Shown: piece by piece, positions 7,534 through 57,502 of the stretch
Numbering within the stretch: position 1 is the stretch's first letter
How the letters are laid out: every line of letters starts with the position of its first letter
NCBI GenBank assembly: GCA_016185245.1
Contig: JACPNZ010000018.1
Location: forward strand, 124,001 to 188,000
DNA from: Hyphomicrobiales bacterium
GTDB lineage: Bacteria; Pseudomonadota; Alphaproteobacteria; Rhizobiales; Aestuariivirgaceae
DNA length: 64,000 bases
Reading direction: 5' to 3'
Notes under the pieces: generated by a model
The model's input: only the letters and a program-made list of their open reading frames with translations
Databases searched by the model: none
What the model was told of the DNA's origin: nothing
Translations under genes and position numbers: made by a program

Positions 7534-8757
7534 ATGGCCGGACCGCTTGCCAATATCCGCGTGCTCGATCTGACCCGAGTGCTGGCGGGGCCTTGGGCAA
7601 CTCAATTGCTGGCGGACTTGGGCGCCGAAGTCATCAAGATCGAGAAACCCGGCGAAGGCGATGACACGAGAGGCTGGGGACCGCCATTTCTCAAAAATGC
7701 CGACGGCACACGGGGGGATGCCGCATATTTTCTTTCTGCCAATCGCGGCAAGTCTTCAGCCTGCATCGATATTGCGAGTTCTGATGGGCAGCGACTCATC
7801 CGTGATCTTGCCGCAAAATCCGATGTTGTCATCGAGAACTTCAAGGTCGGGGGCCTGCGGAAGTATAGCCTCGACTACGATAGCCTGCGCGCCGCCAATC
7901 TGTCGCTGGTCTATTGTTCCCTGACTGGTTTTGGCCAGGATGGCCCCTACGCCCAGCGCGCCGGGTACGATTTCATGATCCAGGGCATGGCTGGAATCAT
8001 GTCGGTGACGGGCCAGCCTGACGGCTCACCCGGCGCCGAGCCGATGAAGGTCGGCGTCGCCTTTGCCGATATCTTCACTGGGCTCTACGCCACGATTGCC
8101 ATTCTGGCGGCTCTCTATCACAGGCAGGCGACCGGCGAGGGTCAGCATGTCGACATGGCCTTGCTCGACTCTCAAGTTGCCGTCATGGCCAACCAGGCGC
8201 TCAACTTCCTCGTCGGTGGGAAGGCCCCGACCCGGCTCGGCAACGCGCATCCGAACATCGTACCTTATCAGACCTTTCAAACTCGAGATGGGCATATTAT
8301 CATGGCGGTGGGTACCGACCGGCAGTTCAGAGAGTATTGCGCAATTGTTGGCATCCCGGAGATCGCCGACGATCCGCGCTTTTCAACCAATCGCGGCCGG
8401 GTCGAAAATCGTCAGGAGTTGATCCCGGTGCTGCTCGGGCCGATGAAGGCCCGGACTACCGCCGAATGGGTGGCGGCATTCGAGGCTGCCGCCGTGCCCT
8501 GCGGGCCGATCAATACGCTCGACCAGGTTTTCGCTGACCCCCAGGTGCAGGCGAGAGATTTGCGGATCGAACTCAGGCGGGAAGACGGAACCACTACGCC
8601 CGGCGTTGCCAATCCAATCCGCTTCTCGGCCACGCCGGTTGAGTATATCAGGGCACCCCCGCGGCTGGGCGAAGGCACAGACCGGGTCTTGTCGTCGGTT
8701 CTGGGGCTCACCGCGGCCGAAATTTCGAACCTGCGGGGCAAAGAAGTCATCAGCTAG
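7534..8757 (+). CDS. Family III CoA-transferase (CaiB/BaiF)
   Basis: A 407-residue cytoplasmic enzyme that moves CoA between carboxylic acids. The family features are clear: the N-terminal PLANIRVLDLTRVLAGPWAT, LLADLGAEVIKIEKPGEGD, the NRGK segment, IENFKVGGLRKYSLDY and the probable catalytic aspartate D179 in VAFADIFTGLYA. The sequence is closest in style to the succinyl-CoA:dicarboxylate branch rather than formyl-CoA:oxalate transferase, but the acid used cannot be told from sequence. It is preceded by a 90-base gap after the methyltransferase pseudogene and followed 95 bases later by the corrinoid methyl-transfer genes; whether it belongs to their pathway is unproven. Confidence 0.88.
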   Translation: MAGPLANIRVLDLTRVLAGPWATQLLADLGAEVIKIEKPGEGDDTRGWGPPFLKNADGTRGDAAYFLSANRGKSSACIDIASSDGQRLIRDLAAKSDVVIENFKVGGLRKYSLDYDSLRAANLSLVYCSLTGFGQDGPYAQRAGYDFMIQGMAGIMSVTGQPDGSPGAEPMKVGVAFADIFTGLYATIAILAALYHRQATGEGQHVDMALLDSQVAVMANQALNFLVGGKAPTRLGNAHPNIVPYQTFQTRDGHIIMAVGTDRQFREYCAIVGIPEIADDPRFSTNRGRVENRQELIPVLLGPMKARTTAEWVAAFEAAAVPCGPINTLDQVFADPQVQARDLRIELRREDGTTTPGVANPIRFSATPVEYIRAPPRLGEGTDRVLSSVLGLTAAEISNLRGKEVIS

Positions 8758-8852
8758 GTGGCCAATCCATGGGCGCAACTTCGGCAGCCGTTGGCCGGGC
8801 GTCGTTTTCAGGCTATCTGCCGCTTTCGGAAAGAGGCATAGAGGCTCCAATC

Positions 8853-9155
8853 ATGGCTAACCTTGTCGTCACCTACTGGCGCGACATCCCTTCCGCCATA
8901 TCCGTCAAAGAGGGGCGGAAGGAGGAAAAACGTATGCTCGCCGACCGGTTCCAGGAAGCCATCGACATGGCCGCCATGCGGGGTGGTGCCGCTGACACGG
9001 ACTCATATCTAGCTGACTGGCACCGGGCCGCTCCCGTAGTTGTCGGCGGCGACCTCGCGGCTGAGGCCGACCGGGCCAAGGCATCACTGGAATCTGAATT
9101 CACCCAGGACCTACTTAGGGCCCTCATCGCAAACGGCGGGAAAGCCAACCCATGA
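8853..9155 (+). CDS. PF13769-like small protein ('virulence factor' family) in a corrinoid methyltransferase operon
   Basis: A 100-residue soluble protein beginning MANLVVTYWRDIPSAISVKE. This opening is typical of the Pfam family labelled 'Virulence factor' (PF13769), a label not based on a known mechanism. The C-terminal part is a charged helix (AAEADRAKASLESEF). I chose the ATG at 8853 because the conserved part begins there; a longer reading from 8769 adds unrelated residues. Its stop overlaps the start of the methyltransferase gene (ATGA at 9152-9155). In alphaproteobacteria such proteins are regularly found beside methyltetrahydrofolate-type methyltransferases and ASKHA reactivases, which suggests an accessory role in corrinoid methyl transfer rather than virulence. 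Confidence 0.72.
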   Translation: MANLVVTYWRDIPSAISVKEGRKEEKRMLADRFQEAIDMAAMRGGAADTDSYLADWHRAAPVVVGGDLAAEADRAKASLESEFTQDLLRALIANGGKANP

Positions 9156-10111
9156 CCCACACCCTCGTTGCTTCGGCAACCAAAGAGCACATCATCGGAT
9201 TCGACTGCCCCTTCACCGTCATCGGCGAACGCATCAACCCCACAGGCCGCAAGAAGCTGGCGGCCGAAATGCAGGCCGGCAATTTCGAGACCGTGATCCG
9301 TGATGCTCTCGCACAGGTTGCGGCTGGCGCGCATGTGCTGGACGTCAACGCCGGAGTGACCGCTGTCAATCCTAACGAGTCCGAGCCGCCTCTGCTCCGC
9401 CAGACCATCGAGATCGTGCAGTCGCTGACCGATACGCCACTTTGCATCGACTCCTCCGTTTCCTCGGCCCTCAAGGCCGGGCTCGAAACCGCCAGAGGTC
9501 GCCCCCTGGTCAACTCAGTCACAGGCGAAGAAGAGAAGCTAGAGGCCATCCTTCCCCTGGTTGCCAAGTACAACGTTGCGGTGGTCGCCATTTCAAACGA
9601 TGAAACCGGGATCTCCGAGGATCCCGATGTGCGCTTTGCGGTCGCCAAGAAGATTGTCGAACGCGCCGCCGACTACGGCATCAAGCCCCATGATATAGTT
9701 GTCGATCCCCTGGTCATGCCAATCGGCGCCATGGGTACGGCGGGGCAGCAGGTGTTCCGTCTGGTCCGTCGGCTGCGCGAGGAGCTCAAGGTCAATACGA
9801 CCTGTGGTGCCTCTAACGTCTCGTTTGGCATGCCCAACCGGCGGGCGCTGACGGGTTACTTCCTAGCGATGGCGGCAAGCCATGGCATGACATCGGCCAT
9901 CATGAATCCGATGCATGACGAGGACATGCATGCAATCTACGGTGCGAACGTACTGAACGGCACCGACCGCAATTGCAAGTTCTGGACCAACAGGTTCCGC
10001 GAAATGGCGCCCGCGCCGTCGGCAGCCGCCCAGGCCGCCGGTGAAATCTCTTCTACCGAAGACATCGAAGCCAGACGCAAAGCCCGCGAAGAACGCCGCC
10101 GCAGGAGATGA
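9152..10111 (+). CDS. Methyltetrahydrofolate:corrinoid methyltransferase (pterin-binding domain)
   Basis: A 319-residue TIM-barrel protein of the pterin-binding family, related to the methyltetrahydrofolate half of MetH and to AcsE. Typical motifs are FTVIGERINPTGRKKLA, GAHVLDVNAG, PLCIDSSVSSALKAGLE, PLVNSVTGEEEKL, DIVVDPLVMPIG, CGASNVSFGMPNR and AIMNPMHDEDMH. It would move a methyl group between a corrinoid protein and tetrahydrofolate. The last 25 residues are basic and disordered (ARRKAREERRRRR) and may be a species-specific tail. The start overlaps the preceding gene by four bases and the ferredoxin-ASKHA gene follows at once, so the three form an operon. No corrinoid-binding protein or substrate methyltransferase (MttB/MtbB type) is present in the window. 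Confidence 0.88.
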   Translation: MTHTLVASATKEHIIGFDCPFTVIGERINPTGRKKLAAEMQAGNFETVIRDALAQVAAGAHVLDVNAGVTAVNPNESEPPLLRQTIEIVQSLTDTPLCIDSSVSSALKAGLETARGRPLVNSVTGEEEKLEAILPLVAKYNVAVVAISNDETGISEDPDVRFAVAKKIVERAADYGIKPHDIVVDPLVMPIGAMGTAGQQVFRLVRRLREELKVNTTCGASNVSFGMPNRRALTGYFLAMAASHGMTSAIMNPMHDEDMHAIYGANVLNGTDRNCKFWTNRFREMAPAPSAAAQAAGEISSTEDIEARRKAREERRRRR

Positions 10112-10112
10112 G

Positions 10113-12137
10113 ATGAGCGATGACGCGCTGATTGTCTTCACTCCGTCGGGCAAGCGCGGACGTTTTCTGCTGGGAACGCCAGTCCTGCAGGCAGCCCGGA
10201 CTCTTGGCGTAGATATCGACTCGGTTTGCGGTGGCCGTGCCATTTGCGGCCGCTGCCAAGTCAATGTTGGTGTGGGCGAATTCGCCAAACACGGAATAAC
10301 CTCTTCGGCCGACCACCTATCGCCGATTTCAAAGGTCGAGGAGCGTTACGACCGCCTTCGTGGGCTTTCTGTTGGGCGCCGCCTGTCCTGCCAGACGAAA
10401 ATACTCGGTGACATCGTCATCGACGTCCCGCCTGAAAGCCAGGTTCACAAGCAGATCATCCGCAAGGAGGCTGATACCCGGGTTATTGAACTCGACCCGT
10501 GTACGAGGCTTTGCTTCCTCGAGGTCGAGGAGCCGGACATGCACAAACCGTCTTCCGATCTCGAACGCGTCTACCGGGCTCTCAAGGAGCAATGGCAGAT
10601 CGAGGATCTGTCTTGCGATCTCGCTATCTTGGCGCAGCTGCAGAAGGTGCTGCGTCAGGGCGATTGGAAAATAACCGCAGCCATCTATAGCCGGGCGCCG
10701 GGGGGCGGAAATCGCCTGGTCGCCATCTGGCCCGGCTTCCATGACACGGTCTACGGGCTGGCCATCGATGTCGGCTCCACCACCATCGCTGCCCACCTCA
10801 CCAACCTCGCAACCGGTGAAATTGCGGCGTCCGCCGGCCTGATGAATCCGCAGATCCGTTTCGGCGAAGATCTGATGAGTCGTGTCTCCTATGTGATGAT
10901 GAATCCCGGTGGCGAAAAGGAAATGACAGCCGCCGTGAGGGAGGCGCTTAACACGCTTGCGGGCCAAGTGGCCCTACAAGTGGGCGTCTCGACGAACGAC
11001 ATCCTTGAAGTTGCCTTGGTCGGCAATCCCGTTATGCACCACCTGGTTCTCGGCATAGACCCGGTTGAACTGGGGGGGGCTCCATTCGCGCTGGCGACGG
11101 GCTTACCAATCACCTGCCCGGCGCGTGATCTGGACTTCAAGATCAACCCCGGGGCCTGGGCCTATGTCCTCCCTTGCATCGCCGGCCATGTGGGGGCAGA
11201 CACGGCGGGTGTGGTTCTTTCGGAAGCACCCCACGAGTCCGACGAGATCATGCTGGCGGTAGATGTCGGAACCAATGCCGAGATCGTTCTCGGGTCGAAA
11301 CGACGGCTGCTTGCCTGCTCGTCACCGACCGGTCCGGCCTTCGAAGGCGCCCAGATATCATCCGGTCAACGCGCTGCACCGGGAGCCATCGAGCGCATTC
11401 GAATTGACCCCGTAACACTGGAGCCTCGGTATCGCGTTATTGGCTGTGAAAAGTGGTCCGACCAGCCCGGCTTTGAAGAGGCAATCGCCGCTATCGGCGT
11501 TACCGGTATCTGCGGATCGGGAATTATCGAGGCTGTCGCCGAAATGTATCTTGCCGGCATCATCAATCAGGATGGTCTCGTTGACGGTTCCTTGGCTGCC
11601 CGTTCCCCGCGCATCGAACCGTATAAACGGACGTTCAACTATGTGATACGCGAGGGTGAACCACGTATCGCCGTCACCCAGAACGATGTGCGCGCCATCC
11701 AGCTTGCCAAGGCAGCCCTTTACGCCGGCGTACGCCTGCTCATGGACAAGCTTGGTATCGATGAAGTTGGCAAGATCAGGCTGGCCGGCGCCTTCGGCAG
11801 CCACATCGACGTTAAATATGCGATGATCCTAGGCCTCATCCCGGACTGCCCGCTCGATCGGGTTCAGTCGGCTGGCAATGCGGCCGGCACCGGCGCTCGA
11901 ATCGCACTTCTCAATTCCCAATCACGCGACGAGATTGAGGCCGTGGTGCGCCGCATTGAAAAGATCGAAACTGCGGTTGAACCGATGTTTCAGCAGCATT
12001 TCGTCGAAGCAATGGCCATCCCACACAAGACGGCGCCTTTCCCCAACCTGTCCAAGAAGATCACTCTGCCGGTACCAAAGTTTGTTGCCCCGGCGGAGGA
12101 TGGTGGAGGCGATCGACGCCGACGGCGCCGCAGCTAG
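10113..12137 (+). CDS. 2Fe-2S ferredoxin / ASKHA corrinoid-protein reductive activator (RACo/RamA-like)
   Basis: A 674-residue protein. It has an N-terminal plant-type [2Fe-2S] domain (C39-x5-C45-x2-C48 and C93), a linker and a large DUF4445/ASKHA ATPase domain from about residue 215 (GLAIDVGSTTIAAHLTNLAT, ALVGNPVMHHLVLGIDP, AVDVGTNAEIVLGSK, TGICGSGIIEAVAEM, RLAGAFGSHID). Proteins of this design reactivate corrinoid proteins by ATP-driven reduction of inactive Co(II) cobalamin. I chose the ATG at 10113, which has GGAG five bases upstream and starts MSDDALIVFTPSGKRG; a longer in-frame reading overlaps the preceding gene needlessly. Its TAG overlaps the end of dnaQ on the other strand by four bases. 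Confidence 0.9.
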   Translation: MSDDALIVFTPSGKRGRFLLGTPVLQAARTLGVDIDSVCGGRAICGRCQVNVGVGEFAKHGITSSADHLSPISKVEERYDRLRGLSVGRRLSCQTKILGDIVIDVPPESQVHKQIIRKEADTRVIELDPCTRLCFLEVEEPDMHKPSSDLERVYRALKEQWQIEDLSCDLAILAQLQKVLRQGDWKITAAIYSRAPGGGNRLVAIWPGFHDTVYGLAIDVGSTTIAAHLTNLATGEIAASAGLMNPQIRFGEDLMSRVSYVMMNPGGEKEMTAAVREALNTLAGQVALQVGVSTNDILEVALVGNPVMHHLVLGIDPVELGGAPFALATGLPITCPARDLDFKINPGAWAYVLPCIAGHVGADTAGVVLSEAPHESDEIMLAVDVGTNAEIVLGSKRRLLACSSPTGPAFEGAQISSGQRAAPGAIERIRIDPVTLEPRYRVIGCEKWSDQPGFEEAIAAIGVTGICGSGIIEAVAEMYLAGIINQDGLVDGSLAARSPRIEPYKRTFNYVIREGEPRIAVTQNDVRAIQLAKAALYAGVRLLMDKLGIDEVGKIRLAGAFGSHIDVKYAMILGLIPDCPLDRVQSAGNAAGTGARIALLNSQSRDEIEAVVRRIEKIETAVEPMFQQHFVEAMAIPHKTAPFPNLSKKITLPVPKFVAPAEDGGGDRRRRRRS

Positions 12138-13422: not shown

Positions 13423-14261
13423 CGCCAGTATTCCGGATCGATTGACCTGGCTACGAGGTTGTAGAGCTCGTCATTCACTTGGGGCCGCACGCCAAACCAC
13501 AACTCAAATCCTCGGACGGCTTGATACAGTAACATTCCGAGTCCGTCGACCGTGGGGTTCCCCCGATCTCCTGCCGCAATCAAAAGTGGAGTTGCAAGCG
13601 GTACGTATACAGTGTCCATCACCACCGCTTTGGATGGAAGGCGGGTTAAATCCAGTTCGAGGGGCGGTTGGCCTTTCATCCCCAGGGCCGTAGCATTGAC
13701 TAGAAGATCGCTATCAATGATCCCATCCGAGCGCTGCTCCCAGGCGCAGATGGACAGCCTGTTGCCGAACTTCTGACGGAGTTTCTCGCTCCGTTCGGGC
13801 GTTCGGTTACAAACGATGATTTCCGCCGCATCCGATTCCAGCAGGGCGTTGACAATCGCCATGGCGGCACCCCCTGCGCCCAGCACGAATACCTTACTCC
13901 CATCGATGCGGCACGATGGAGATTTGGTGGAAAGATTTGCAAGAAATCCTTCGCCGTCAGTGTTTGAGCCGAGGGTCGCGCCATCACGGACATAGACAGT
14001 GTTGACGGCACCGAGCAGGCGCGTGCTGTCGTCTGCCGGTGCCACCAGATCAAAGACGGCCTCCTTGTGGGGTATAGTCACGTTGCAACCACGATAACCG
14101 TTGAGGTGAAGATTCCTGATAAATTTCGGAAGGTTTCCTGGCTCCACGGGCACACGCTCGTAGATCCCATCTATCCCATATTTGTTGATCCAGTAATTGT
14201 GGACGATGGGTGAGCGTGAGTGGCTAATGGGCCAGCCTATGACACAAGCCTTTAGTGTCAT
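13419..14261 (-). CDS. aroE: Shikimate dehydrogenase
   Basis: A 280-residue NADP-dependent enzyme that reduces 3-dehydroshikimate in aromatic amino-acid synthesis. The N-terminal substrate site is ACVIGWPISHSRSPIVHNYW; NVTIPHKEAVFDLV has the catalytic lysine; LGAVNTVYV follows. The Rossmann motif is VLGAGGAAMAIVNALL with the NRTPERS cofactor loop, and the C-terminus has LGMLLYQAVRGFELWFG. I chose the ATG at 14261 because it gives the standard length and makes an ATGA overlap with maf; a longer reading from 14372 adds 37 residues inside maf. Confidence 0.95.
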   Translation of the reverse strand: MTLKACVIGWPISHSRSPIVHNYWINKYGIDGIYERVPVEPGNLPKFIRNLHLNGYRGCNVTIPHKEAVFDLVAPADDSTRLLGAVNTVYVRDGATLGSNTDGEGFLANLSTKSPSCRIDGSKVFVLGAGGAAMAIVNALLESDAAEIIVCNRTPERSEKLRQKFGNRLSICAWEQRSDGIIDSDLLVNATALGMKGQPPLELDLTRLPSKAVVMDTVYVPLATPLLIAAGDRGNPTVDGLGMLLYQAVRGFELWFGVRPQVNDELYNLVARSIDPEYWR

Positions 14262-14845
14262 GTCGCCAGCGTTCCATCTTTCCGAAGAAAATTCAGCAGT
14301 GGCAAAAGCGGCAGACCCAGAATTGTGAAAAAGTCTCCGTCTATGGATTCGAAGAGTTGCACTCCACGGCATTCCAGCTGGTATGCCCCTACCGAATTCG
14401 ACACAGTCGGGCCTGACGCGGCCAGGTATTCGTCCATGAAGGGTTCACTGAAATTCCTCATTGTTAGCGAGGCAGAGTCGATGGACTCCCAAACCGGTTC
14501 GCCATTGCGTGCGCAACATAATGCCGAGATGAGTTTGTGGGTTCGCCCTCGAAGCATTCTGAGTAGTTGCCTGGCGGCCTCTTCACTTGTCGGCTTATCC
14601 CAGTTCTTGCCTTCAAACTCGAGCACCTGGTCCGCTCCAATCACCAGCGCCTCCGAATTTCTTGCCGACACGCTCGTGGCTTTGGCGCGAGCAAGTTCAC
14701 TGGCGAGTATTGCAGGTGCGGCGCCCGCAAGTTCAGTTTTTAAGCGCTTTTCATCCACCTCAGGCGATTGCACACGGAATGCGACGCCAGCGTCGATCAT
14801 GATCTTTCTGCGGATCTGGCTGGATGAGGCAAGGATAATGGTCAC
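14258..14845 (-). CDS. maf: Maf family nucleotide pyrophosphatase
   Basis: A 195-residue Maf/YhdE-type enzyme that hydrolyses nucleoside triphosphates, probably dTTP/UTP or modified nucleotides. The start IILASSSQIRRKIMIDAGV has the substrate loop, although the usual SPRR motif reads SQIRR. VIGADQVLEFEGKNWDKPTS has the catalytic aspartate-containing GADQ, and SVGAYQLECRGVQLFESIDG the C-terminal signature, followed by FFTILGLPLLPLLNFLRK. It overlaps ppsR upstream and aroE downstream by four bases each. The linked Maf-AroE-CoaE-DnaQ order next to the origin is common in Hyphomicrobiales. Confidence 0.93.
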   Translation of the reverse strand: MTIILASSSQIRRKIMIDAGVAFRVQSPEVDEKRLKTELAGAAPAILASELARAKATSVSARNSEALVIGADQVLEFEGKNWDKPTSEEAARQLLRMLRGRTHKLISALCCARNGEPVWESIDSASLTMRNFSEPFMDEYLAASGPTVSNSVGAYQLECRGVQLFESIDGDFFTILGLPLLPLLNFLRKDGTLAT

Positions 14846-15687
14846 GGGGCGGAGTCGCGTTGAGGTTTTCTTTCAGCCAAGAGATTGAGAATCGACGCAG
14901 CCGTCTCTTCGACCGACCTGCGGCTGACATCGATGATGGGCCAGTCATTCTTGGAGCATAGCGTCTTCATCTTGACGATCTCGGTTGTGATGTGCCTTGG
15001 ATCGATGTAACTGTTTTCGCGAGTTTCATGAAGTGCCAGGAGCCGGTGCCGGCGAATTTGCGCCACACGCTCGGCGCTGGCAATCAAGCCGACGATCAAG
15101 GGATTCTTGAGGGTTTCAAGTACTGCCGGCGGTGCCACAGATAACACTATTGGGATGTTGGCAGTCCTGATGCCGCGTTGGGCGAGGTAGATGCTGGTGG
15201 GGGTCTTGGAAGTCCGGCTGATTCCAATCAGGACGACATCGGCGCGTTCGAGATCGTCGATGGCCTGGCCGTCGTCATGAGTCATGGTGAAGTTCAACGC
15301 GTCAATGCGACGGAAATATTCGGCGTTGAGGACATGCTGTCCGCCAATCTGAGGTCGCGATTCAGCGTTGAGGTAGTGAGCGAGGCTTTCGATTACCGGA
15401 TCTAGGATGGAGATGCAGGGTACTCCCAAGCGGCTGCAGTAAGATTCCAGCTGATCACGGAGGTCTCTGTTGACGAGTGTAAAGAGGACAATTCCTGGTT
15501 GACGTTCGATTTCAAGCAGTACACGCTGCAGTTGTTTTGGAGTGCGGACCAGAGGATAAATGTGGTCAATTGGCCGATAGTCTGCGTATTGGGCAGTTGC
15601 GGCACGGGCGACTGTATTGAGAGTTTCTCCCGTTGCGTCAGAAATAAGATGCATATGGAAGTAGCGGGCTTCGCTGCGATTGGTCAT
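14842..15687 (-). CDS. ppsR: Pyruvate,phosphate dikinase / PEP synthase regulatory protein (DUF299)
   Basis: A 281-residue bifunctional kinase/phosphorylase of the DUF299 family, which switches PEP synthase or pyruvate,phosphate dikinase on and off by phosphorylating a threonine near its catalytic histidine. Key parts are FHMHLISDATGETLNTVARA at the start, a P-loop in VVLIGISRTSKTPTSIYLA, NIPIVLSVAPPAVLETLKNP and the closing IIDVSRRSVEETAASIL. Its place directly left of the probable origin and divergent from hemE matches the arrangement around the Caulobacter origin. It heads the five-gene chain reading leftward; its promoter must lie in the origin region. Confidence 0.93.
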   Translation of the reverse strand: MTNRSEARYFHMHLISDATGETLNTVARAATAQYADYRPIDHIYPLVRTPKQLQRVLLEIERQPGIVLFTLVNRDLRDQLESYCSRLGVPCISILDPVIESLAHYLNAESRPQIGGQHVLNAEYFRRIDALNFTMTHDDGQAIDDLERADVVLIGISRTSKTPTSIYLAQRGIRTANIPIVLSVAPPAVLETLKNPLIVGLIASAERVAQIRRHRLLALHETRENSYIDPRHITTEIVKMKTLCSKNDWPIIDVSRRSVEETAASILNLLAERKPQRDSAP

Positions 15688-15699
15688 TTCTGGATGGGC

Positions 15700-15708
15700 T
15701 GTGGATAG
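15700..15708 (-). promoter_or_regulatory. DnaA-box-like site
   Basis: TGTGGATAG on the given strand, one base from the reverse complement of the consensus TTATCCACA. It is 13 bases upstream of the ppsR start. Weaker seven-of-nine matches occur at 15804-15812 and 15926-15934 in the same gap. In Caulobacter and related species origins use few strong boxes and several weak ones, so this pattern is acceptable, but single matches are weak evidence alone. Confidence 0.5.
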
Positions 15709-15855
15709 AATGTTTGCAAAGTGGGTCGCCTAAGTTGCCCATAGCATGACCAATGGTTGTTTTCCCAAAGTTTTGAGGCATGGAGATCAAGCAGTTGTGT
15801 CTTTGTGGATTGCGGAAGTTTCTCTCGAGATGCGTAATCATTTATTTGCACACCA

Positions 15856-15870
15856 TTAACACTTTGTTAA
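15856..15870. promoter_or_regulatory. CtrA box 1 in the origin region (TTAA-N7-TTAA)
   Basis: TTAACACTTTGTTAA, an exact match to the full CtrA consensus. In Caulobacter, phosphorylated CtrA binds such sites in the origin and blocks replication in non-replicating cells. It lies 140 bases upstream of hemE, in the AT-rich part of the gap. Confidence 0.7.
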
Positions 15871-15876
15871 TACATA

Positions 15877-15891
15877 TTAATATCCGGTTAA
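15877..15891. promoter_or_regulatory. CtrA box 2 in the origin region (TTAA-N7-TTAA)
   Basis: TTAATATCCGGTTAA, a second exact CtrA consensus whose centre is 21 bases (two helical turns) from that of box 1, which would put two CtrA dimers on the same face. A third pairing, 15867-15880, has a six-base spacer and is probably incidental. Confidence 0.7.
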
Positions 15892-16009
15892 TAGAAATGT
15901 AGAAATTTTCACGAAACGCAACAGGTGTGGACGAAATTTGGAATAGTCTGTATCCCGACCTCCGTCGCCCCAACAAAGAATCCAAAACAAACAAGAGATA
16001 TAGTTCTGG

Positions 16010-17068
16010 ATGGCAATGAGTTCTACGGGAAAGCCGCTCTTGGACGTTCTTCGATGTAGTCCTGTTACACGTCGGCCTATCTGGTTCATGAGACAGGCGG
16101 GTCGTTATCTGCCGGAATATAGGAAGGTACGAGAACAGGCAGGGTCATTTCTGGAGCTTTGTTATAACCCGGCAGCAGCAGCAGAAGTTACAGTCCAGCC
16201 CCTTCGACGATTTGATATAGATGCAGCCATTCTCTTCGCTGACATACTAGTAGTACCCCATGCCATGGGACTTGATTTGCGTTTTGAGGATGGTGAAGGT
16301 CCCCTTCTCGGTACGGTCCGGGATGTTCAGGAAGTCAACGCCCTGAAACAATTGGAAAATAGCTGGCAATTGAAGTCGATTTGCGAGACCGTAGCTTTAG
16401 CAAGCGAAGGTATTGCTAAGCATGTAGCAATGATCGGTTTCTGTGGGGGGCCGTGGACGGTTGCTTGCTATATGATTGAGGGCAAGAGTTCCGACTGGCA
16501 ATTTGCAAAGCTGGTTGCTTACAGACGAGAATCTTGGTTCATTCGATTGATCGAGCGGTTGGTAGAGGAATCGGTGGAGTATCTTTCGGCGCAGATCGAT
16601 GCGGGAGTTGAGGTAGTCCAGGTGTTTGACTCGTGGGCGGGCGAATTGACCGGCCGCTTACGGCGGGAGTTTGTCATTGCGCCCCTTTCTGAAATGACTC
16701 GACGCTTGCATGAACGCCATCCAAATGTGCCCATTATCTTGTTTGCGAAAGGTCTTGGCACTGACCATGGCACCTTGGCCGAGGCAAGCAAGTGCGCCGC
16801 GTTGGGGATTGAGGCCGAACTTTCGATGTCCTGGGCTGCTGGAAACATAGGGCACGAAATGGTGTTGCAGGGCAATCTGGATCCGATCTCGCTGCTAGGG
16901 GGCGAGCAAATTGCCGCTAGCGAAGCTGTGGAGCTAGCAAAGGCTATTCCGAGTTATCGGCATATTTTCAATCTTGGGCACGGGATCAAGGTGGGTACCG
17001 CCCCGGAGACGATTGGGGCGGTGGTTGAGGCGGTTCGGAATTGGGATCGCGCACACGCGAGTCCATAA
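16010..17068 (+). CDS. hemE: Uroporphyrinogen decarboxylase
   Basis: A 352-residue enzyme that removes four carboxyl groups from uroporphyrinogen III to make coproporphyrinogen III in heme synthesis. Motifs are plain: RRPIWFMRQAGRYLPEYRKV at the start (active-site arginines), AAILFADILVVPHAMGLDL (catalytic aspartate region), GFCGGPWTVACYMIEG, VVQVFDSWAGEL and FNLGHGIKVGTAPE. The ATG at 16010 is followed by another at 16016; either could be used. It is the first gene right of the probable origin and abuts hemJ. Base composition of this gene is more AT-rich than most of the window. Confidence 0.95.
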   Translation: MAMSSTGKPLLDVLRCSPVTRRPIWFMRQAGRYLPEYRKVREQAGSFLELCYNPAAAAEVTVQPLRRFDIDAAILFADILVVPHAMGLDLRFEDGEGPLLGTVRDVQEVNALKQLENSWQLKSICETVALASEGIAKHVAMIGFCGGPWTVACYMIEGKSSDWQFAKLVAYRRESWFIRLIERLVEESVEYLSAQIDAGVEVVQVFDSWAGELTGRLRREFVIAPLSEMTRRLHERHPNVPIILFAKGLGTDHGTLAEASKCAALGIEAELSMSWAAGNIGHEMVLQGNLDPISLLGGEQIAASEAVELAKAIPSYRHIFNLGHGIKVGTAPETIGAVVEAVRNWDRAHASP

Positions 17069-17646: not shown

Positions 17647-18930
17647 ATGGCGAATATTTCCGAGCTTAAAGAAATCAAGCTTCAGGATTTGAAGCTTAAG
17701 ACGCCGGCCGAACTGGTTACGTTAGCCGAAGAACTGCAGGTGGAGAATGCCAGCGCACTCCGCAAGCAGGAGTTGATGTTCGCCATCTTGAAGAATCTCG
17801 CCGTACGCGAGGTTGAGATCATTGGTGAGGGGGTGGTCGAGGTCCTGCAGGATGGCTTCGGCTTCTTGCGCTCACCCGATGCGAACTACCTTGCCGGTCC
17901 GGATGACATCTACGTTAGCCCCAGCCAAATCAGAAAGTTTACGTTGCGGACCGGCGATACAGTTGAAGGGCAGATCAGGAGCCCTAAGGACGGAGAGCGT
18001 TATTTCGCGCTGGTGAAAGTGAACACCATCAACTTCGAGGATCCGGAGAATACGCGGCACAAGGTGCATTTTGACAACCTTACGCCGCTCTACCCGGACG
18101 AACGGTTGGAAATGGAGGTGGGCGATCCTACCAAGAAAGATTTTTCGGCTCGTGTAATCGACATTGTTGCACCCCTCGGCAAGGGCCAGCGCGGGCTTAT
18201 TGTTGCGCCACCGCGAACCGGCAAGACGGTTCTACTTCAGAATATTGCGCATTCGATCACCAGCAACCATCCCGAATGCTATCTCATCGTGTTGCTGATC
18301 GACGAGCGTCCGGAAGAAGTGACCGACATGCAGAGGTCGGTGCGAGGTGAAGTCATCAGTTCGACTTTTGACGAACCGGCGTCGCGGCATGTGCAAGTTG
18401 CGGAAATGGTCATCGAAAAGGCGAAGCGGCTCGTCGAACACGGTCGGGACGTGGTCATACTTCTGGATTCGATAACGCGATTGGGGCGCGCCTATAACAC
18501 GGTGGTGCCGTCATCCGGTAAGGTTCTGACTGGCGGCGTGGATGCGAATGCGCTGCAACGGCCGAAGCGGTTTTTCGGCGCCGCGCGCAACATCGAGGAG
18601 GGTGGCTCGCTGACGATTATCGCAACGGCGCTCATCGATACTGGCAGCCGCATGGATGAAGTGATCTTCGAGGAGTTCAAGGGCACCGGCAATTCCGAAA
18701 TCATTCTTGATCGGAAGGTTGCCGATAAGCGCGTGTTTCCATCCATTGATATCTTGCGTTCCGGTACGCGCAAGGAGGAGTTGCTGGTCAAGGGCGATAT
18801 TCTCAAGAAGATGTATGTATTGCGGCGCATTCTCAATCCGATGGGTACGGTCGATGCTATCGAGTTCCTTCTCGACAAGCTGCGTCAGACGAAGACCAAT
18901 GGTGATTTCTTCGAATCAATGAACGCCTGA
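17647..18930 (+). CDS. rho: Transcription termination factor Rho
   Basis: A 427-residue hexameric RNA helicase. It has an N-terminal Rho_N/SAP-like helix bundle ([20 protein letters not shown]), the cold-shock-like RNA-binding domain ([20 protein letters not shown]), and a RecA-type ATPase with Walker [12 protein letters not shown] and the Q/R-loop segments near [31 protein letters not shown] and [20 protein letters not shown]. Rho is usually autoregulated through its leader; the 149 bases after hemJ could be such a leader. It lacks the long acidic insertions seen in actinobacterial Rho. Its end overlaps the DUF255 gene on the other strand by 15 bases. Confidence 0.96.
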
Positions 18931-20961
18931 CCGGGTGTCGCGAATTCCAAGTAGCGCGGCCGCGGCGAATAGCTCTTCGATGTTCCGTGAGGGCGCAGCG
19001 CAGGTTTGACCTCGGCACAGATAGACGGCTCCCTTGTCTGAACTCGCGGCCTTGCCATATGCGGGATGGCTTTGCGGGATTTGGTCGACTGCCCGGTTAA
19101 AGATGGCATCAAGCCCGCATAGGCTAATAGTAGCCGTGAGAAGTTCGGCCGGAACGTTGCCGGCAATGACAACCTGCAATGGGTCGAAGAGCTCGGCGAC
19201 GGATGTAAAGTAGGTCGCTGCTCCGAATGGGTTCGCGATGGCCTGCTCGGCGAACGTTGCAGCGATGTTTTCGGCCAATTGGAGCCAGCGTCGCTCGCCG
19301 GTGATGTGATGGAGGGCGGTGAAGTTCCCGATCATGAGCGCATTGGCGTTGGGCGTGGCATCGTCGACGATGCTGATGATTTGTGCCGGAAGATCGCTGC
19401 TGGCGAGCGGTGCGAGGGTTAGCGAGCAAGTCGTGGAGTCCCAGTAGTTACAGACGAGTTGCTCGGCTAGTGTTGTGGCGTTGGAGATGTATGATTGCTC
19501 GCCAGTTAGGGTATGAAGAGCTCTGGCGGCGGAAATCAACTGAGCATAGTCATCTGCATTTGCGGTATGACCGAGGCGGGTGCCTCGTGAAGAATGCCTA
19601 AGGTGTCCGTCTTGGTGATGGATGGCGAGCAGGTTTTGGAATGACTGGATTGCTGCGTCAGACCAGGTGGGACTAGTTAAAGCAAGTGCAGCCTCCGCGA
19701 GGGCCCTGATGGTTAGGGCATTCCAGTCAGTTAGAACCTTGTCGTCGTAGCTGGGTCTTGATCTTGTTTTTTTGGCGTCGAGAAGCGTGGAACGGGCCCG
19801 CCCTAGTATTTGTTCGGTGCTAGGATCCGCTGGCGCGAGGTGATTTAGGCGGTTGAGGATGTTGTATCCATCCCAGTTGCCGGCTGGGCTTACATCATAA
19901 TACTCGCAGAAGAGTTCGGCAGTGGCGGGATCGAGATGCTCGTAGATTTCGTCTCGATGCCAGACGTAGTAGCGACCCTCCTCGCCATCCGAGTCGGCGT
20001 CGTAGCTTGAGCCGAAGAGTCCTTCGGGTGTGCGCATTTCAGTAAGGATGAAACTGAGCGTTGATTGGAGTCGATCGTGGAATGTGAGGTTTCCTGTTTG
20101 GAGCCAGGCGCGGGTGAGCAGGGAGCCGAATTGTGCGTTGTCAGGGAGCATCTTTTCGAAGTGCGGTACCAGCCAGCGCGAGTCGACAGAGTAGCGCGCA
20201 ATGCCGCCGGCTAGGTGATCGTATATTCCGCCTTGGCAGAGATGGAGCAGGGTTGTTTCGACGAGGCCAGCTCCATAAGGTACGCCGCGCCGCTGGGCGT
20301 CTGACCACAAGAAGTTGAGTAGCGGGAATTGTGGGAACTTTGGTGCGCCCTGAAGGCCGCCGAATATGGGGTCCATGGCGCGGGCGATTGTGTCTGCTGC
20401 GGTGTGGATGTTGGGTAGGCTGACTATGTGGGTTGATCGCGGTCGGGCCTGTTCTACGAGGAGTTGGGTCAGGGCTCCGGCGGTAGATGTGATTTTGTGT
20501 GGCTCGGTTTGCCAGATGCGGGAAATCTCTCGCAAGATATGGCGGAAGGAAGGTCTGCCATACCGGTAGTCCGGCGGGAAGTATGTCCCTCCCCAGAATG
20601 GGCGGGCTTCAGGATCGAGAAAGATTGACAGTGGCCAACCGCCCTGTTGGCCGAGGGCAAGGAGGGCCTGCATGTAAATCTTGTCGATGTCTGGTCTTTC
20701 CTCGCGGTCGACCTTGATGCTGATGAAGTTGGCGTTAAGAAAGAAAGCCGTCTCGGGGTCTTCGAAGCTCTCGTGGGCCATGACGTGACACCAATGGCAG
20801 GCGGCATAGCCGATGGAGAGAAATACCGGCTTGTTGCGGTCGCGGGCTGTTTCGAAGGCCTTGGGTGACCAGGGTTGCCAGTGGACGGGATTGTCCTTGT
20901 GCTGGAGCAGGTAGGGGCTAGATTCATGGGCTAGCTGGTTTCTGGTCACGGGTAGTCCCAT
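18916..20961 (-). CDS. Thioredoxin-domain protein of the DUF255 / YyaL family
   Basis: A 681-residue protein with an N-terminal thioredoxin-like domain (residues about 1-165) followed by an alpha/alpha-toroid domain like those of glycosidases and epimerases. The first domain opens [20 protein letters not shown] and has the redox motif CHWC in [20 protein letters not shown], then [12 protein letters not shown]-like text ([20 protein letters not shown]). The exact role of this widely conserved family (SPATA20 in animals) is not known. I start it at the ATG at 20961; the 43 residues read upstream are not conserved and would run into mnmE. It is divergent from mnmE with only 32 bases between the starts. 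Confidence 0.9.
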
Positions 20962-20993
20962 TGGTAGTGCAAGAGTATCGATTCGAATCCGTA

Positions 20994-22328
20994 ATGGCAG
21001 GTTCGCAGACAATCTATGCGCTTTCCAGTGGCCAGGGTAGAGCCGCGATCGCGATAGTGCGGGTAAGTGGGGCCGGCGCTGGAACGGCATTGGAAATGCT
21101 ATGTGGATCGAGGCCGACAGCGCGCCGGGCTACAACGAGAGTTCTGCGCGATCCGGGTGATGGTTCGGCTATCGATAAGGCGGTAGTTCTCTGGCTGCCT
21201 GGGCCTGCGAGCAGCAGCGGCGAGGACATGGTGGAGTTTCATGTTCACGGGAGCCGAGCGGTCTTGGCGGCGTTGCTGACGGCATTGGGAGGCATTCCGG
21301 GATTCAGACCGGCCGAGGCAGGGGAATTCAGCAGGCGCGCCTTTGCCAATGGCCGCATCGATCTGGTGGAAGCGGAAGGGTTGGCCGATCTCCTGAGGGC
21401 CGAGACGACGCGGCAGCGCCAACTGGCGTTGAGTCATCTGTTGGGGGAGGCGAGCTCGGCCTACGAGGCTTGGCGAAAGCGGTTGGTCGCGATCCTGGCG
21501 CATGTCGAGGCGGCGGTTGATTTTGTCGAGGAGGGCGAAGTCGCCACCACGGCACTACTGACCGTACGAGATGAGGCAATGGCATTGGCATCCGATATGT
21601 CCTGCGCCCTGCGGGGGGCCAGACTCGCGGAGGAAATACGGGCGGGCGTAAGAATTGTGCTGGCTGGTCCACCGAATACCGGAAAATCTAGCCTACTCAA
21701 TGCCCTGGCTAAGCGTCAGGCGGCCATAGTGTCAGCCAAGCCTGGAACGACACGCGATGTGATCGAGGTGCCAATGGATATTGACGGCATGCGGGTGACT
21801 GTTGCGGATACCGCTGGTCTGCGGACCGATGTCGTGGACGATATAGAGATCCTTGGCATCCAGAGTAGTCGTCGGGAAATAGCCCATGGGGATATCGTCA
21901 TTTGGGTTGCCTCACCTGACGTTGAGGGGAGCGAAGTCCCGGACGATGAGGTGAGGCCATACCTGAAGATAGTCAACAAATCCGATACACATGGCAGCCA
22001 ATCGAGACTCATACGAAATGAATCTGATCTCTGGTTGTCGGCCTTGACGGGCGATGGTATTCCCGACCTGCTTGCCACCCTTAGCACAATGATTTCCAAG
22101 CGATATGATCGCGCGGAGGAAACGGTTATCGTCAGGGCGCGGCAAAGACATGCTGTTGAGGAGTCGATTCGGCTGCTAAACGAATCCCTACAGCACGAAG
22201 CCGGGCAGATAGAGCTGGTCGCCGAGGATCTTCGCGGGGCTGCAACGGCATTGTCACGGGTAACCGGCAGGATCGAGGTGGAAGACTTGTTGTCTTCGAT
22301 ATTCAGCGAGTTCTGCATCGGAAAATAG
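20994..22328 (+). CDS. mnmE: tRNA modification GTPase MnmE
   Basis: A 444-residue GTPase that, with MnmG, places the carboxymethylaminomethyl group on wobble uridine 34 of certain tRNAs. It has the N-terminal folate-binding domain ([20 protein letters not shown]), a helical domain, the G domain (P-loop [12 protein letters not shown], switch PGTTRD, DTAGLR, and a NKSD nucleotide motif) and the invariant C-terminal CIGK. I start at the ATG at 20994, where the conserved part begins; an upstream in-frame start at 20961 adds eleven residues. The gene is followed by a parS-like site and then by its partner mnmG. Confidence 0.95.
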
Positions 22329-22343: not shown

Positions 22344-22359
22344 TGTTTCACGTGAAACG
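22344..22359. promoter_or_regulatory. parS-like centromere site 1
   Basis: TGTTTCACGTGAAACG, 15 of 16 bases of the ParB-binding consensus TGTTTCACGTGAAACA and perfectly palindromic over its 14-base core. It lies between mnmE and mnmG, 6.5 kb from the probable origin and 3.4 kb from parB. Confidence 0.85.
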
Positions 22360-24272: not shown

Positions 24273-24905
24273 ATGACTATGGAAGCCCGCGCCAATTTGG
24301 GGTTCGATGTTTCACGTGAATCATTGGACCGGCTCGATCGATACGTAAGTCTGCTTCAGATTTGGCAAGGAAGCTTCAATCTCATTGGCCGCTCGACTGA
24401 AGAGGAGATCTGGTCACGCCATGTTGCCGACGCGCTCCAGCTCCTTCACCTGATCAGCCCAGAAACACGCGATGTCGCCGATTTGGGCTCGGGAGGGGGC
24501 CTGCCTGGTCTGGTTCTGGCCATCGCCACCGACTGGCATGTCGACCTCTACGAGAGTAACGGGAAAAAATGCGCATTCCTTCGTGAGGTCATTCGACAAA
24601 TCGGCGCGAAGGCAACGGTTCATGCGACTCGCGTAGAAAGTTTGGGGAAAGGTGTTAGTATTCCTAGTGTGCAGGTGGTAACCGCCCGCGCCCTGGCACC
24701 TTTGCCTAAACTCCTCGACTACGCCGAGCCCTTCCTGAGTTCAGGTGCAGTTGGGTATTTCCACAAGGGACAAGATGTTGATGCTGAATTGACCGAAGCC
24801 ACCAAATATTGGAAACTGAGATTTGTGAAGCACCCAAGCCTAACCGATTCGAAGGGGGTCATACTTGAAGTGAGGGAGGCACGACGTGTCCCAGCCCGAG
24901 ATTAA
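24273..24905 (+). CDS. rsmG: 16S rRNA (guanine-527-N7)-methyltransferase
   Basis: A 210-residue SAM-dependent enzyme that methylates G527 of 16S rRNA. The SAM-binding motif is DVADLGSGGGLPGLVLAIAT; upstream are NLIGRSTEEEIWSRHVADAL and downstream ALAPLPKLLDYAEPFL. I use the ATG at 24273, two bases after the mnmG stop; a TTG at 24267 and an ATG at 24279 are alternatives. A parS-like site lies inside codons 12-17. The end overlaps parA by 20 bases. Confidence 0.93.
   Translation: MTMEARANLGFDVSRESLDRLDRYVSLLQIWQGSFNLIGRSTEEEIWSRHVADALQLLHLISPETRDVADLGSGGGLPGLVLAIATDWHVDLYESNGKKCAFLREVIRQIGAKATVHATRVESLGKGVSIPSVQVVTARALAPLPKLLDYAEPFLSSGAVGYFHKGQDVDAELTEATKYWKLRFVKHPSLTDSKGVILEVREARRVPARD
24308..24323. 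promoter_or_regulatory. parS-like centromere site 2, inside rsmG
   Basis: TGTTTCACGTGAATCA, 15 of 16 bases of the parS consensus, 1.96 kb from the first site. It sits in the coding frame of rsmG. Clusters of several parS sites next to parAB are usual. Confidence 0.8.
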
Positions 24906-25719
24906 GCTGACGCCCAGTTCTGAGCTGCGGATTCTGGCCGTCGCCAACCAGAAAGGCGGGGTTGGAAAGACAACTACCGCCATCAATCTCGGAACTGCCT
25001 TGGCGGCAATTGGCGAGAGGGTTCTGGTCATCGATCTCGACCCACAGGGTAATGCCAGCACTGGCCTTGGCATTACCCGCAAGCCACTGCAGAAATCGTC
25101 CTATCACGTCCTAATCGGTGAGGCCGAACTCAAGGATGTGATTGTCGATTCCGGAATACCCAGACTGGACTGCGCTCCCTCGACCATGGATCTCCTCGGC
25201 GCCGAACTCGAGCTGGCCGGTTTTGATCGCAAGACATTCAGGCTGGCGGATGCCATCCAACGGCTTCGAGACTCAAGCGAAACGAATCGATCATACTCCT
25301 ACATACTCGTAGACTGTCCGCCCTCCCTCAATCTATTGACTATCAATTCCCTTTCTGCGGCCGATGCCATACTGGTGCCCCTGCAATGCGAATTCTTTGC
25401 TCTAGAAGGGCTGAGCCAATTGCTGAAGACGGTTGAAAGGGTTAAGACCACCCTCAACCCAAGATTGTCGATCCAGGGAGTAGTGCTGACGATGTTCGAT
25501 CGGCGCAACAGCCTGTCGGAACAGGTCGCCGCAGATGTTCGCAGTGTTCTTGGAGAAAAAGTCTATCAGACAGTCATACCACGCAACGTGCGGGTATCCG
25601 AGGCGCCATCATACGGTAAACCGGTCCTTCTATACGACAATAACTGTACCGGATCGCAAGCGTACATCAGATTGGCCTCGGAGGTTATTCGGCGGGAACG
25701 TCAACTACGGGCCGCCTAG
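24886..25719 (+). CDS. parA: Chromosome partitioning ATPase ParA
   Basis: A 277-residue Walker-type ATPase that drives segregation of the origin. The deviant Walker A is at residues 23-30 (KGGVGKTT), followed by VLVIDLDPQGNASTGLGI, the Walker B region YILVDCPPSLNLLT, PLQCEFFALEGLSQLLKT and VPRNVR-like text (VIPRNVRVSEAPSYGKPV). It starts with a GTG inside the end of rsmG. It works with ParB bound to the parS sites found upstream. Confidence 0.96.
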   Translation: MSQPEIKLTPSSELRILAVANQKGGVGKTTTAINLGTALAAIGERVLVIDLDPQGNASTGLGITRKPLQKSSYHVLIGEAELKDVIVDSGIPRLDCAPSTMDLLGAELELAGFDRKTFRLADAIQRLRDSSETNRSYSYILVDCPPSLNLLTINSLSAADAILVPLQCEFFALEGLSQLLKTVERVKTTLNPRLSIQGVVLTMFDRRNSLSEQVAADVRSVLGEKVYQTVIPRNVRVSEAPSYGKPVLLYDNNCTGSQAYIRLASEVIRRERQLRAA

Positions 25720-25788
25720 TATCGATTCATCTCCGAAACGCTGAATTTTTGACCCAACGGCAGATATCTTGATTGTAGGTCCCGAGTG

Positions 25789-26670
25789 ATGATGACGCAG
25801 CCACCAAAAAAGCGACTTGGTCGCGGTCTCGCCGCGCTGATTGGCGATGATTCCCCGAATGAGGCGCCCTCAGTCGATGCGCGACAGCTCCGCCACATGC
25901 CGATTGAGCTGTTACGTACTAACCCGCACAATCCGAGAAAGCATTTTGGCAACGAAGAACTTGAGGAGCTTGCCAAATCAATAAAAGAGAAGGGCCTCCT
26001 GCAGCCTTTAGTTGTTCGACCGCTTCCAGATGGCGAACATGAAATAGTTGCCGGCGAGCGCCGTTGGAGGGCGGCACAGATAGCCGGGATGCATAACGTT
26101 CCCGTGCTAATTCGGGATCTCAATGATGGTGAGGCTCTGGAAATTGCTCTCATTGAAAATATTCAGCGCAGCGACCTCAATCCGCTCGAGGAAGCGCGCG
26201 CCTACAATCTCCTTCTCGATCAGTTCAGCTACACCCAACAGCAGCTCGCCGATTCTTTGGGAAAGAGCCGCAGCCATATCGCCAATTTGTTGCGCCTCCT
26301 CAATCTGCCGGAATCCGTGCGCAAGCTCATCGAGACCGGAAAGCTTTCCGCCGGACATGCCCGAACGCTGGTTGCGACGGAATCGCCCGCCGCCTTGGCG
26401 CAGCAAATCATCCAGCTTGGACTTTCGGTCCGGGACGCTGAGGAACTTGCCCGGACAGCCGCGCCTGCAACACGGAAACCCAGATCGGAGAAGAGCGCTG
26501 ACACACGGGCCCTGGAAAAATCCGTCGGCGACAGTCTTGGTCTCAAGGTCGAGATCGATGACCGCAGCGGCAAGGGCGGAACCGTGACCATCGGCTACCG
26601 AAGCCTGGATCAGCTCGAAACGATTTGCGAGCGCTTGCAAGGAATGAACAAGGGCGCATCGGCCGAGTAG
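25789..26670 (+). CDS. parB: Chromosome partitioning protein ParB
   Basis: A 293-residue CTP-dependent DNA clamp that loads at parS. It begins with the conserved KKRLGRGLAALIGDD, has the CTP/ParB-N motifs (LRTNPHNPRKHF, LLQPLVVRPL, EIVAGERRWRAAQ), the helix-turn-helix (YTQQQLADSLGKSRSHIANL) and a C-terminal dimer domain. I use the first ATG (25789); the GTG at 25786 and ATG at 25792 are equally possible. It lies 69 bases after parA. Downstream comes about 600 bases of insertion-sequence debris. Confidence 0.96.
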   Translation: MMTQPPKKRLGRGLAALIGDDSPNEAPSVDARQLRHMPIELLRTNPHNPRKHFGNEELEELAKSIKEKGLLQPLVVRPLPDGEHEIVAGERRWRAAQIAGMHNVPVLIRDLNDGEALEIALIENIQRSDLNPLEEARAYNLLLDQFSYTQQQLADSLGKSRSHIANLLRLLNLPESVRKLIETGKLSAGHARTLVATESPAALAQQIIQLGLSVRDAEELARTAAPATRKPRSEKSADTRALEKSVGDSLGLKVEIDDRSGKGGTVTIGYRSLDQLETICERLQGMNKGASAE

Positions 26671-57120: not shown

Positions 57121-57502
57121 ACTCCTCGTGTGCGGGCTGACGGCACAGCGCCAGCGTGATTCGGCTGTTGTAAACGTACGGAACTCCCTCTAAAGATGCA
57201 ATATTTGCATATGCACTCTTTGCGTGTAGTCGGCTGAACGAACCTCCTTGTAGTTATATGAACTCAACCAAGTATACATCTATAAAGCCCGCGAATATTT
57301 ATGAATGTAATTCATGTTTATCCAAATATAATATATCACATCATATATATGATCCGATATATAGTGTAATATCATAAGTTTAAGTTCATAAATTAACTGT
57401 ATATTAACTATATTTATATCATCAATACTCATGACGAAACAAATTCGTCACCTCGACAACTGTCGAGGTCCCTTCAATACAAGACGGGCGTGGGAATTCA
57501 GA
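57121..57502. promoter_or_regulatory. AT-rich control region upstream of ftcR
   Basis: A 382-base gap between the MerR gene and ftcR. From about 57180 to 57430 it is strikingly AT-rich against a GC-rich background, with TATATA runs. It contains palindromes (ATGAATGTAATTCAT at 57301-57315 and TCATATATATGA at 57341-57352) and a perfect CtrA box (57393-57407). In related rhizobia and Brucella the master flagellar regulator rem/ftcR is controlled by MucR, a protein that prefers AT-rich DNA, so a similar role is likely here. I see no convincing -10/-35 pair. Confidence 0.6.
57393..57407. promoter_or_regulatory. CtrA box upstream of ftcR (TTAA-N7-TTAA)
   Basis: TTAACTGTATATTAA, an exact CtrA consensus match, 96-110 bases upstream of the ftcR start. 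The surrounding DNA is very AT-rich, which raises the odds of a chance match, so this box is weaker evidence than those at the origin and ftsK. Confidence 0.5.

Follow-up and report, generated by a model that had tools for sequence, protein, structure and literature searches.

The intergenic gap between the divergent genes ppsR and hemE in this member of the Hyphomicrobiales is predicted with high confidence, from its sequence and that of its homologs, to be the chromosomal replication origin (oriC). Its AT-rich core carries two neighbouring perfect boxes for the master regulator CtrA, to which CtrA very likely binds, and such boxes recur in the homologous gaps of relatives.

The window, that is, the whole 64-kb stretch of DNA analysed (contig C35:124001-188000), belongs to a 3.5-Mb genome that is 97.2% complete and distributed over 58 contigs. 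The sequence-only reading had proposed an origin under CtrA control in the gap, beside hemE as in Caulobacter and with parS and parAB 6-11 kb away. The gap coordinates and the divergent orientation of ppsR and hemE proved exact by gene ends, the gene order is the same as at Cori, the origin of Caulobacter crescentus, and the partitioning elements are present at the distances given:

14258-14845, minus strand: maf, the next gene left of ppsR, which adjoins the gap directly where ppsR has been lost
14842-15687, minus strand: ppsR (Kinase-PPPase, DUF299/COG1806, PF03618), left flank, by profile match
15688-16009, no strand: ppsR-hemE intergenic gap, predicted oriC, on the basis of gene ends, synteny in 52 loci and motif enrichment in homologous gaps
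16010-17068, plus strand: hemE (PF01208/TIGR01464), right flank, by profile match
22344-22359, no strand: parS-like site, 1 mismatch
24308-24323, no strand: parS-like site, 1 mismatch
24886-25719, plus strand: parA (ParA/AAA_31 domains)
25786-26670, plus strand: parB

Leftward from the gap, ppsR is followed by maf, aroE, coaE and dnaQ, and rightward hemE is followed by hemJ, rho, mnmE, mnmG, rsmG, parA and parB (aroE, coaE, mnmG and rsmG were named by reading translations and dnaQ by its exonuclease domain). The two parS-like sites, 6.3 and 8.3 kb from the gap and both within 8.6 kb of it, are the only ones in the whole genome (97.2% complete) at up to two mismatches. Between rho and mnmE a DUF255/thioredoxin-like gene (18916-21090) runs in the opposite direction; mnmE is shifted by a similar distance in several relatives and unshifted in others.

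Conservation of the locus was examined in 61 genomes, 37 of them from the same genus. A hemE gene was found in 59 genomes, ppsR in 36 (15 of the 37 in the genus, several genomes being incomplete drafts) and CtrA, at E <=1e-60, in 55, including 34 of the 37 same-genus genomes, where the protein is 94-98% identical to the copy of the window genome. The 59 genomes with a hemE match provided 51 fetched loci in addition to the window, 52 in all; G005, G043, G044, G045, G047, G050 and G054 were left out because a contig edge truncated hemE, because hemE and ppsR were on separate contigs or because ppsR gave no match, apart from G050, which was simply unused. Within the reach of each stretch, the order dnaQ-coaE-aroE-maf-(ppsR)-gap-hemE-hemJ-rho-mnmE-mnmG-parA-parB is kept in the 52 loci, with small holes (e.g., aroE, not found in G039).

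Independent evidence on the position of the origin was sought in strand composition. GC skew is described as insufficient for this purpose in several Alphaproteobacteria (PMC1914354). The cumulative GC-skew minimum, proposed earlier as the check on the origin, falls near the gap within the window (13,904, 1.8 kb away) and far from it over the whole of contig C35 (about 15 kb, 125 kb away), and neither the sampled 1-Mb contig of the same-genus genome G027 nor the sampled single-contig genome G055 displays a clean switch. Since the genome is in 58 contigs and its skew is weak, the measure is indecisive here; showing no clean sign change at the gap in C35, G027 or G055, it was dropped as evidence either way. 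The polarity of GGGNAGGG, the E. coli KOPS motif, is more informative in the complete relative G055. For 222 motifs in 818,600 sampled bases (sampling being denser near the gap by choice), the best two-breakpoint fit sets the origin at 3.813 Mb (score 88), the homologous gap lies at 3.772 Mb with flanking positions scoring 80-82, and the strand split about the gap and its antipode is 76/38 vs 33/75 (Fisher p 7e-8). By this polarity the origin of G055 is no more than about 50 kb away from the homologous gap. As the G055 gap contains no CtrA or DnaA box, the result supports the location and not the motifs. On the contig of the window itself GGGNAGGG polarity is not significant (36 motifs; left +7/-9, right +11/-9; p 0.37), and in G027 the bias to the left of the gap is of the expected sign (7/19), the right side being uninformative (2/3).

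The following elements were identified within the gap:

15700-15708, minus strand: DnaA-like box TGTGGATAG (CTATCCACA on the minus strand), 1 mismatch, not above chance alone
15804-15812, minus strand: weak DnaA-like box TGTGGATTG, 2 mismatches, not above chance alone
15830-15909, no strand: AT-rich core (75% AT), candidate unwinding element, with both CtrA boxes inside
15856-15870, no strand: CtrA box 1, TTAACACTTTGTTAA, perfect TTAA-N7-TTAA, predicted site
15877-15891, no strand: CtrA box 2, TTAATATCCGGTTAA, perfect TTAA-N7-TTAA, predicted site
15926-15934, minus strand: weak DnaA-like box TGTGGACGA, 2 mismatches, within the conserved block 15924-15953
15978-15982, no strand: single GANTC (CcrM-type) site, GAATC

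The AT-rich core noted earlier is borne out: the gap is 59% AT vs 43% in its surroundings, 15830-15909 ranks second in AT content among the 80-bp stretches of the 64-kb window, and 15835-15914 is the second least stable. The CcrM-type GAATC is likewise there, as a single site. The near-consensus DnaA box and the two weaker ones exist as described but do not exceed chance in this gap alone, because at least one box at <=1 mismatch occurs in 129/1000 shuffles of the gap and three boxes at <=2 mismatches in 156/1000; DnaA boxes attain significance only across the homologous gaps of relatives. Exact TTATNCACA occurs nine times in the genome, neighbouring copies being separated by over 90 kb or lying on different contigs. 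The excess of GANTC in homologous gaps is modest, about 1.7-2 times the mean of 30 shuffles (118 vs 69.7; 283 vs 142.5). The one match to the IHF site (WATCAN5WTR) in the gap, at 15836, is at chance level (179/1000 shuffles) and was set aside; the gaps of the other 11 pair-bearing genomes hold no IHF match. A block TGTGGAC...TTGG...TGTAT at 15924-15953, between the CtrA pair and hemE, is strongly kept in most same-genus gaps that retain ppsR and could be a DnaA site, a hemE promoter, or both.

The CtrA boxes were not among the reasons first given for CtrA control, and this tandem pair now supports that claim. They are spaced 21 bp, with four TTAA half-sites starting at 0/11/21/32 bp; the steps of 11/10/11 bp approximate the 10.5-bp helical repeat, which would allow two adjoining CtrA dimers on one face of the DNA. 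Among 5000 dinucleotide shuffles of the gap, 71 contained at least one CtrA box and none contained two. Genome-wide, TTAA-N7-TTAA occurs 21 times vs 20 for the reversed control pattern and is therefore not enriched, yet of these 21 boxes the two in the gap are the only pair closer than 3 kb. The genome encodes CtrA (NF045991, 422.6 bits, cut-off 350) and a CcrM-like methyltransferase (best model NF050803, 625.5 bits, below the cut-off of 830); dnaA is located on a different contig from the gap. The anatomy and conservation of the gap and the presence of ctrA, ccrM-like, dnaA and parAB genes are direct observations.

Both types of box are concentrated in homologous gaps. The 51 gaps other than that of the window total 18,130 bases and contain 37 perfect CtrA boxes, vs 11 in 880,950 flanking bases; DnaA boxes at <=1 mismatch number 93 inside vs 171 in the flanks, and perfect ones 23 vs 7. 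A CtrA box is present in 27 of the 51 gaps and a DnaA box in 47. AT richness fails to explain this enrichment, because 30 rounds of dinucleotide shuffling gave a mean of only 0.70 CtrA boxes (largest 3) and 4.47 DnaA boxes (largest 8). A Cori-like trade-off, in which origins with CtrA boxes would have fewer perfect DnaA boxes, was considered and is unsupported: in 121 gaps, counted after removal of five named loci duplicating genomes of the comparison, perfect DnaA boxes occur in 12/55 gaps with CtrA boxes vs 20/66 without (p 0.31).

Within the genus, the array varies together with the neighbouring gene. A search of the 61 whole genomes for two CtrA boxes at 21-bp spacing with <=1 mismatch returned 24 sites in 22 genomes (reversed control, 8 sites in 6 genomes). 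Half of them (12/24) occupy the ppsR-hemE gap, with a single site in each of 12 genus members that possess ppsR (12/15), and the remainder lie elsewhere, three in the same genus (G012, G024, G027) and nine in seven genomes of other families. No such pair occurs in the ppsR-bearing same-genus genomes G008, G013 and G014 or in the 20 gaps without ppsR examined in the genus; in the gaps of the genus it was found only where ppsR is kept. One carrier, G031 (a 93% complete draft), has the pair in its gap and no CtrA match at E 1e-60. Where a same-genus gap next to ppsR has two perfect boxes, the spacing is 21 bp in 8/8 cases, and half-site columns are 98% conserved vs 77% for the spacer, a comparison that is partly circular in that the rows were picked by pattern. 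Of the 20 ppsR-less gaps, three have CtrA boxes separated by 197-199 bp, six have one box and 11 have none; together they contain 15 perfect DnaA boxes vs 3 in the 14 gaps with ppsR. In a FastTree phylogeny of nine concatenated neighbours the ppsR-less genomes form two clades split by G013 and G014, which retain the gene, a pattern that implies two or more losses of ppsR, or a regain; the clade with the window has low support (0.28). The ppsR gene, neighbour of the predicted origin, was not found in 22 of the 37 same-genus genomes, some of them incomplete.

The survey was extended to named relatives, taking the best 80 of at least 524, a set that is not a census. In these best 80, hemE faces ppsR in 74 loci, the other six having no hemE match in the fetched flank; a perfect CtrA box is found in 32 of the 74 gaps, with 36 boxes inside the gaps vs 1 in 683,601 bases outside. 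Still among the best 80, all 14 Bosea-named loci have a CtrA box, centred 160-175 bp upstream of hemE, and so do the single loci of Methylocystis, Bauldia, Lutibaculum and Tepidamorphus, while the loci checked under the names Parvibaculum (six), Ancylobacter (two), Mesorhizobium (one) and Filomicrobium (one) show no perfect box. Across 100 distinct ppsR-flanked gaps, 44 of 54 box centres fall 125-225 bp upstream of hemE, where uniform placement would put 24%, the interval having been chosen post hoc and the genomes being related. The six loci without a hemE match include three of Bradyrhizobium (L221, L227, L233), in which none was found in the 5-kb flank beside ppsR; the cluster flanking the origin may have broken up in them.

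Sinorhizobium meliloti and Brucella abortus are also members of the Hyphomicrobiales. Chances appear evenly balanced for the proposal that CtrA boxes at oriC are widespread and possibly ancestral in this order, usually 125-225 bp upstream of hemE, and were lost in Sinorhizobium and Brucella. This proposal draws on the Aestuariivirga loci, the 14 Bosea-named loci and those of Methylocystis, Tepidamorphus, Lutibaculum and Bauldia. It further holds, as an equally even matter, that the array has switched within one genus, alternating between the 21-bp pair, distant pairs or single boxes, and none.

For the window, the reading that the gap is the chromosomal origin and that phosphorylated CtrA blocks opening of its core as in Cori is, taken as a whole, likely. 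DnaA would load on the few weak boxes of the gap (15700, 15804, 15926) and then melt the AT-rich core at 15830-15909. Phosphorylated CtrA would occupy the two neighbouring boxes (15856-15891), the four half-sites at steps of 11/10/11 bp placing it on about one helix face as a cooperative double dimer, which would span the core and prevent DnaA from melting it; an array in the AT core may block core opening as well as DnaA loading. With the core covered, replication would start only after CtrA had been dephosphorylated or degraded, and ParB at the two nearby parS sites would then separate the new origins. Binding, repression and timing are modelled here on Caulobacter, and repression of initiation by CtrA bound at the pair is favoured less firmly than the binding, the balance being somewhat on its side.

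Other explanations of the gap may be weighed against this reading. The pair could serve as a promoter element for hemE, ppsR or a small RNA of the CcnA type, whether or not the gap is an origin. At the Caulobacter origin, CtrA is said to control transcription of hemE as well as the CcnA RNA, which is transcribed from Cori and presumably CtrA-activated (PMC8959179), and in the window the conserved block 15924-15953 comes after the CtrA boxes. A sigma-70-like match at 15856-15883 overlaps CtrA box 1, although such matches are no more frequent than chance would give (shuffle mean 0.8). Against a promoter role, the CtrA boxes lie inside the AT-rich core, with DnaA-like boxes on either side. A small RNA in the gap was discarded as a candidate, there being no Rfam match in the gap and only weak consensus folds in its right half (RNAalifold, 12 rows, -5 to -7 kcal/mol). 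We regard a promoter element as an unlikely account of the pair; promoter and origin roles are nevertheless compatible, and both can hold, as in Cori.

It is far less probable still that the gap is inactive, the origin having moved elsewhere (e.g., near dnaA) and the gene order being a relic. The weakness of the DnaA boxes in this gap and the GC skew of contig C35, which does not mark it, would fit such a move, and the flank cluster can break up, since no hemE was found beside ppsR in the three Bradyrhizobium loci (of the best 80 of at least 524 named relatives). Nonetheless, a search for perfect TTATNCACA boxes revealed no rival cluster, all nine being far apart, the only parS-like sites of the genome adjoin this gap, its box-rich sequence persists in relatives through the loss of ppsR, and the polarity of G055 marks the homologous region. 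Gene order, AT core, parS proximity, conservation of a gap rich in DnaA boxes and G055 polarity all agree with the origin lying where the sequence-only reading had put it. Chance, finally, would make of the gap an AT-rich stretch with incidental TTAA repeats, which its composition (59% vs 43% AT) does favour. Two boxes never arose in the 5000 dinucleotide-preserving shuffles, CtrA boxes exceed shuffled expectation both in the 51 relatives and in the 74 named ones (from the best 80 of at least 524), and the 21-bp spacing and, with the circularity mentioned, the half-site conservation point the same way; the comparative counts already refute this explanation, which can be given practically no weight.

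The known system closest to this gap is Cori, described as containing five CtrA sites, five DnaA sites and one IHF site in the interval from hemE to COG1806/DUF299 (PMC1914354). As at Cori, the gap is situated between hemE and a DUF299/COG1806 gene (ppsR), has an AT-rich core and TTAA-N7-TTAA boxes beside weak DnaA-like boxes, and has parS within about 8 kb (PMC1914354, PMC4468827). Unlike Cori, with its five spread-out CtrA sites, it contains two, fused in one 36-bp array, and no conserved IHF site was found in it. The origins of Rickettsia and Wolbachia, predicted in silico, share the hemE flank, the AT-rich gap and the DnaA and CtrA sites, and differ in the left neighbour (in Wolbachia), in a variable number of CtrA sites and in a reported IHF site (PMC1914354). 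Cori is described as high in CtrA affinity and low in DnaA affinity. Weakening of all five of its CtrA sites is reported to perturb the cycle only mildly in laboratory culture (PMC4468827). In Hyphomonas neptunium, ChIP-seq is reported to place CtrA at a site next to the origin (PMC7200025). The chromosomal origins of two members of the same order as the window genome contrast with the present gap: that of S. meliloti is reported to have no CtrA motif and not to be bound (PMC4433202), and CtrA of B. abortus is reported as not binding the origin (PMC2877005).

Origins of this type are known, while no description was found of the fused array of four half-sites or of CtrA boxes recurring at origins across the Hyphomicrobiales. 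A search of titles and the opening parts of abstracts, with most subscription papers outside its scope, gave none of CtrA at origins of Hyphomicrobiales/Rhizobiales, Aestuariivirga, Bosea or Methylobacterium. A 2007 paper mentions wider conservation as unpublished, in a passage that names neither species nor CtrA in particular (PMC1914354), a remark that bears against full novelty. The distribution of boxes suggests that CtrA control of origins is common among the relatives of this bacterium, in contrast to a review that reports CtrA sites as unseen in origins beyond Caulobacter and perhaps Rickettsia. Direct control of initiation by CtrA is the textbook Caulobacter circuit, which rhizobial models reportedly do not have. 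If origins in much of the Hyphomicrobiales do have CtrA boxes at a consistent position, direct coupling of this master regulator to initiation would be commoner than described, and the gain, loss and rearrangement of origin CtrA boxes could be traced within a single genus. Why CtrA acts at some origins only would then be testable by comparison, with cultured Aestuariivirga litoralis and Bosea strains as subjects.

Some further features of this genome were noted. In L154 (G000:C13), some 1.7 kb short of the contig end, the frame 8633-9811 begins roughly 0.7 kb downstream of dnaA, and its end closely resembles a portion of the C-terminal domain of DnaA (a second PF08299 match); either dnaA is partly duplicated there or the proximity of the contig end has affected the assembly. 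At 9152-12137 of the window a pterin-binding methyltransferase-like gene is followed by a ferredoxin/ASKHA-type activator-like gene (both named by reading the translation), a pair that hints at corrinoid C1 metabolism. With 82.5% AT, 57340-57419 is the most AT-rich 80-bp stretch of the window; it contains a perfect CtrA box at 57393-57407, some 0.5 kb ahead of the effector domain encoded by a response-regulator-like gene, which is a candidate CtrA target.
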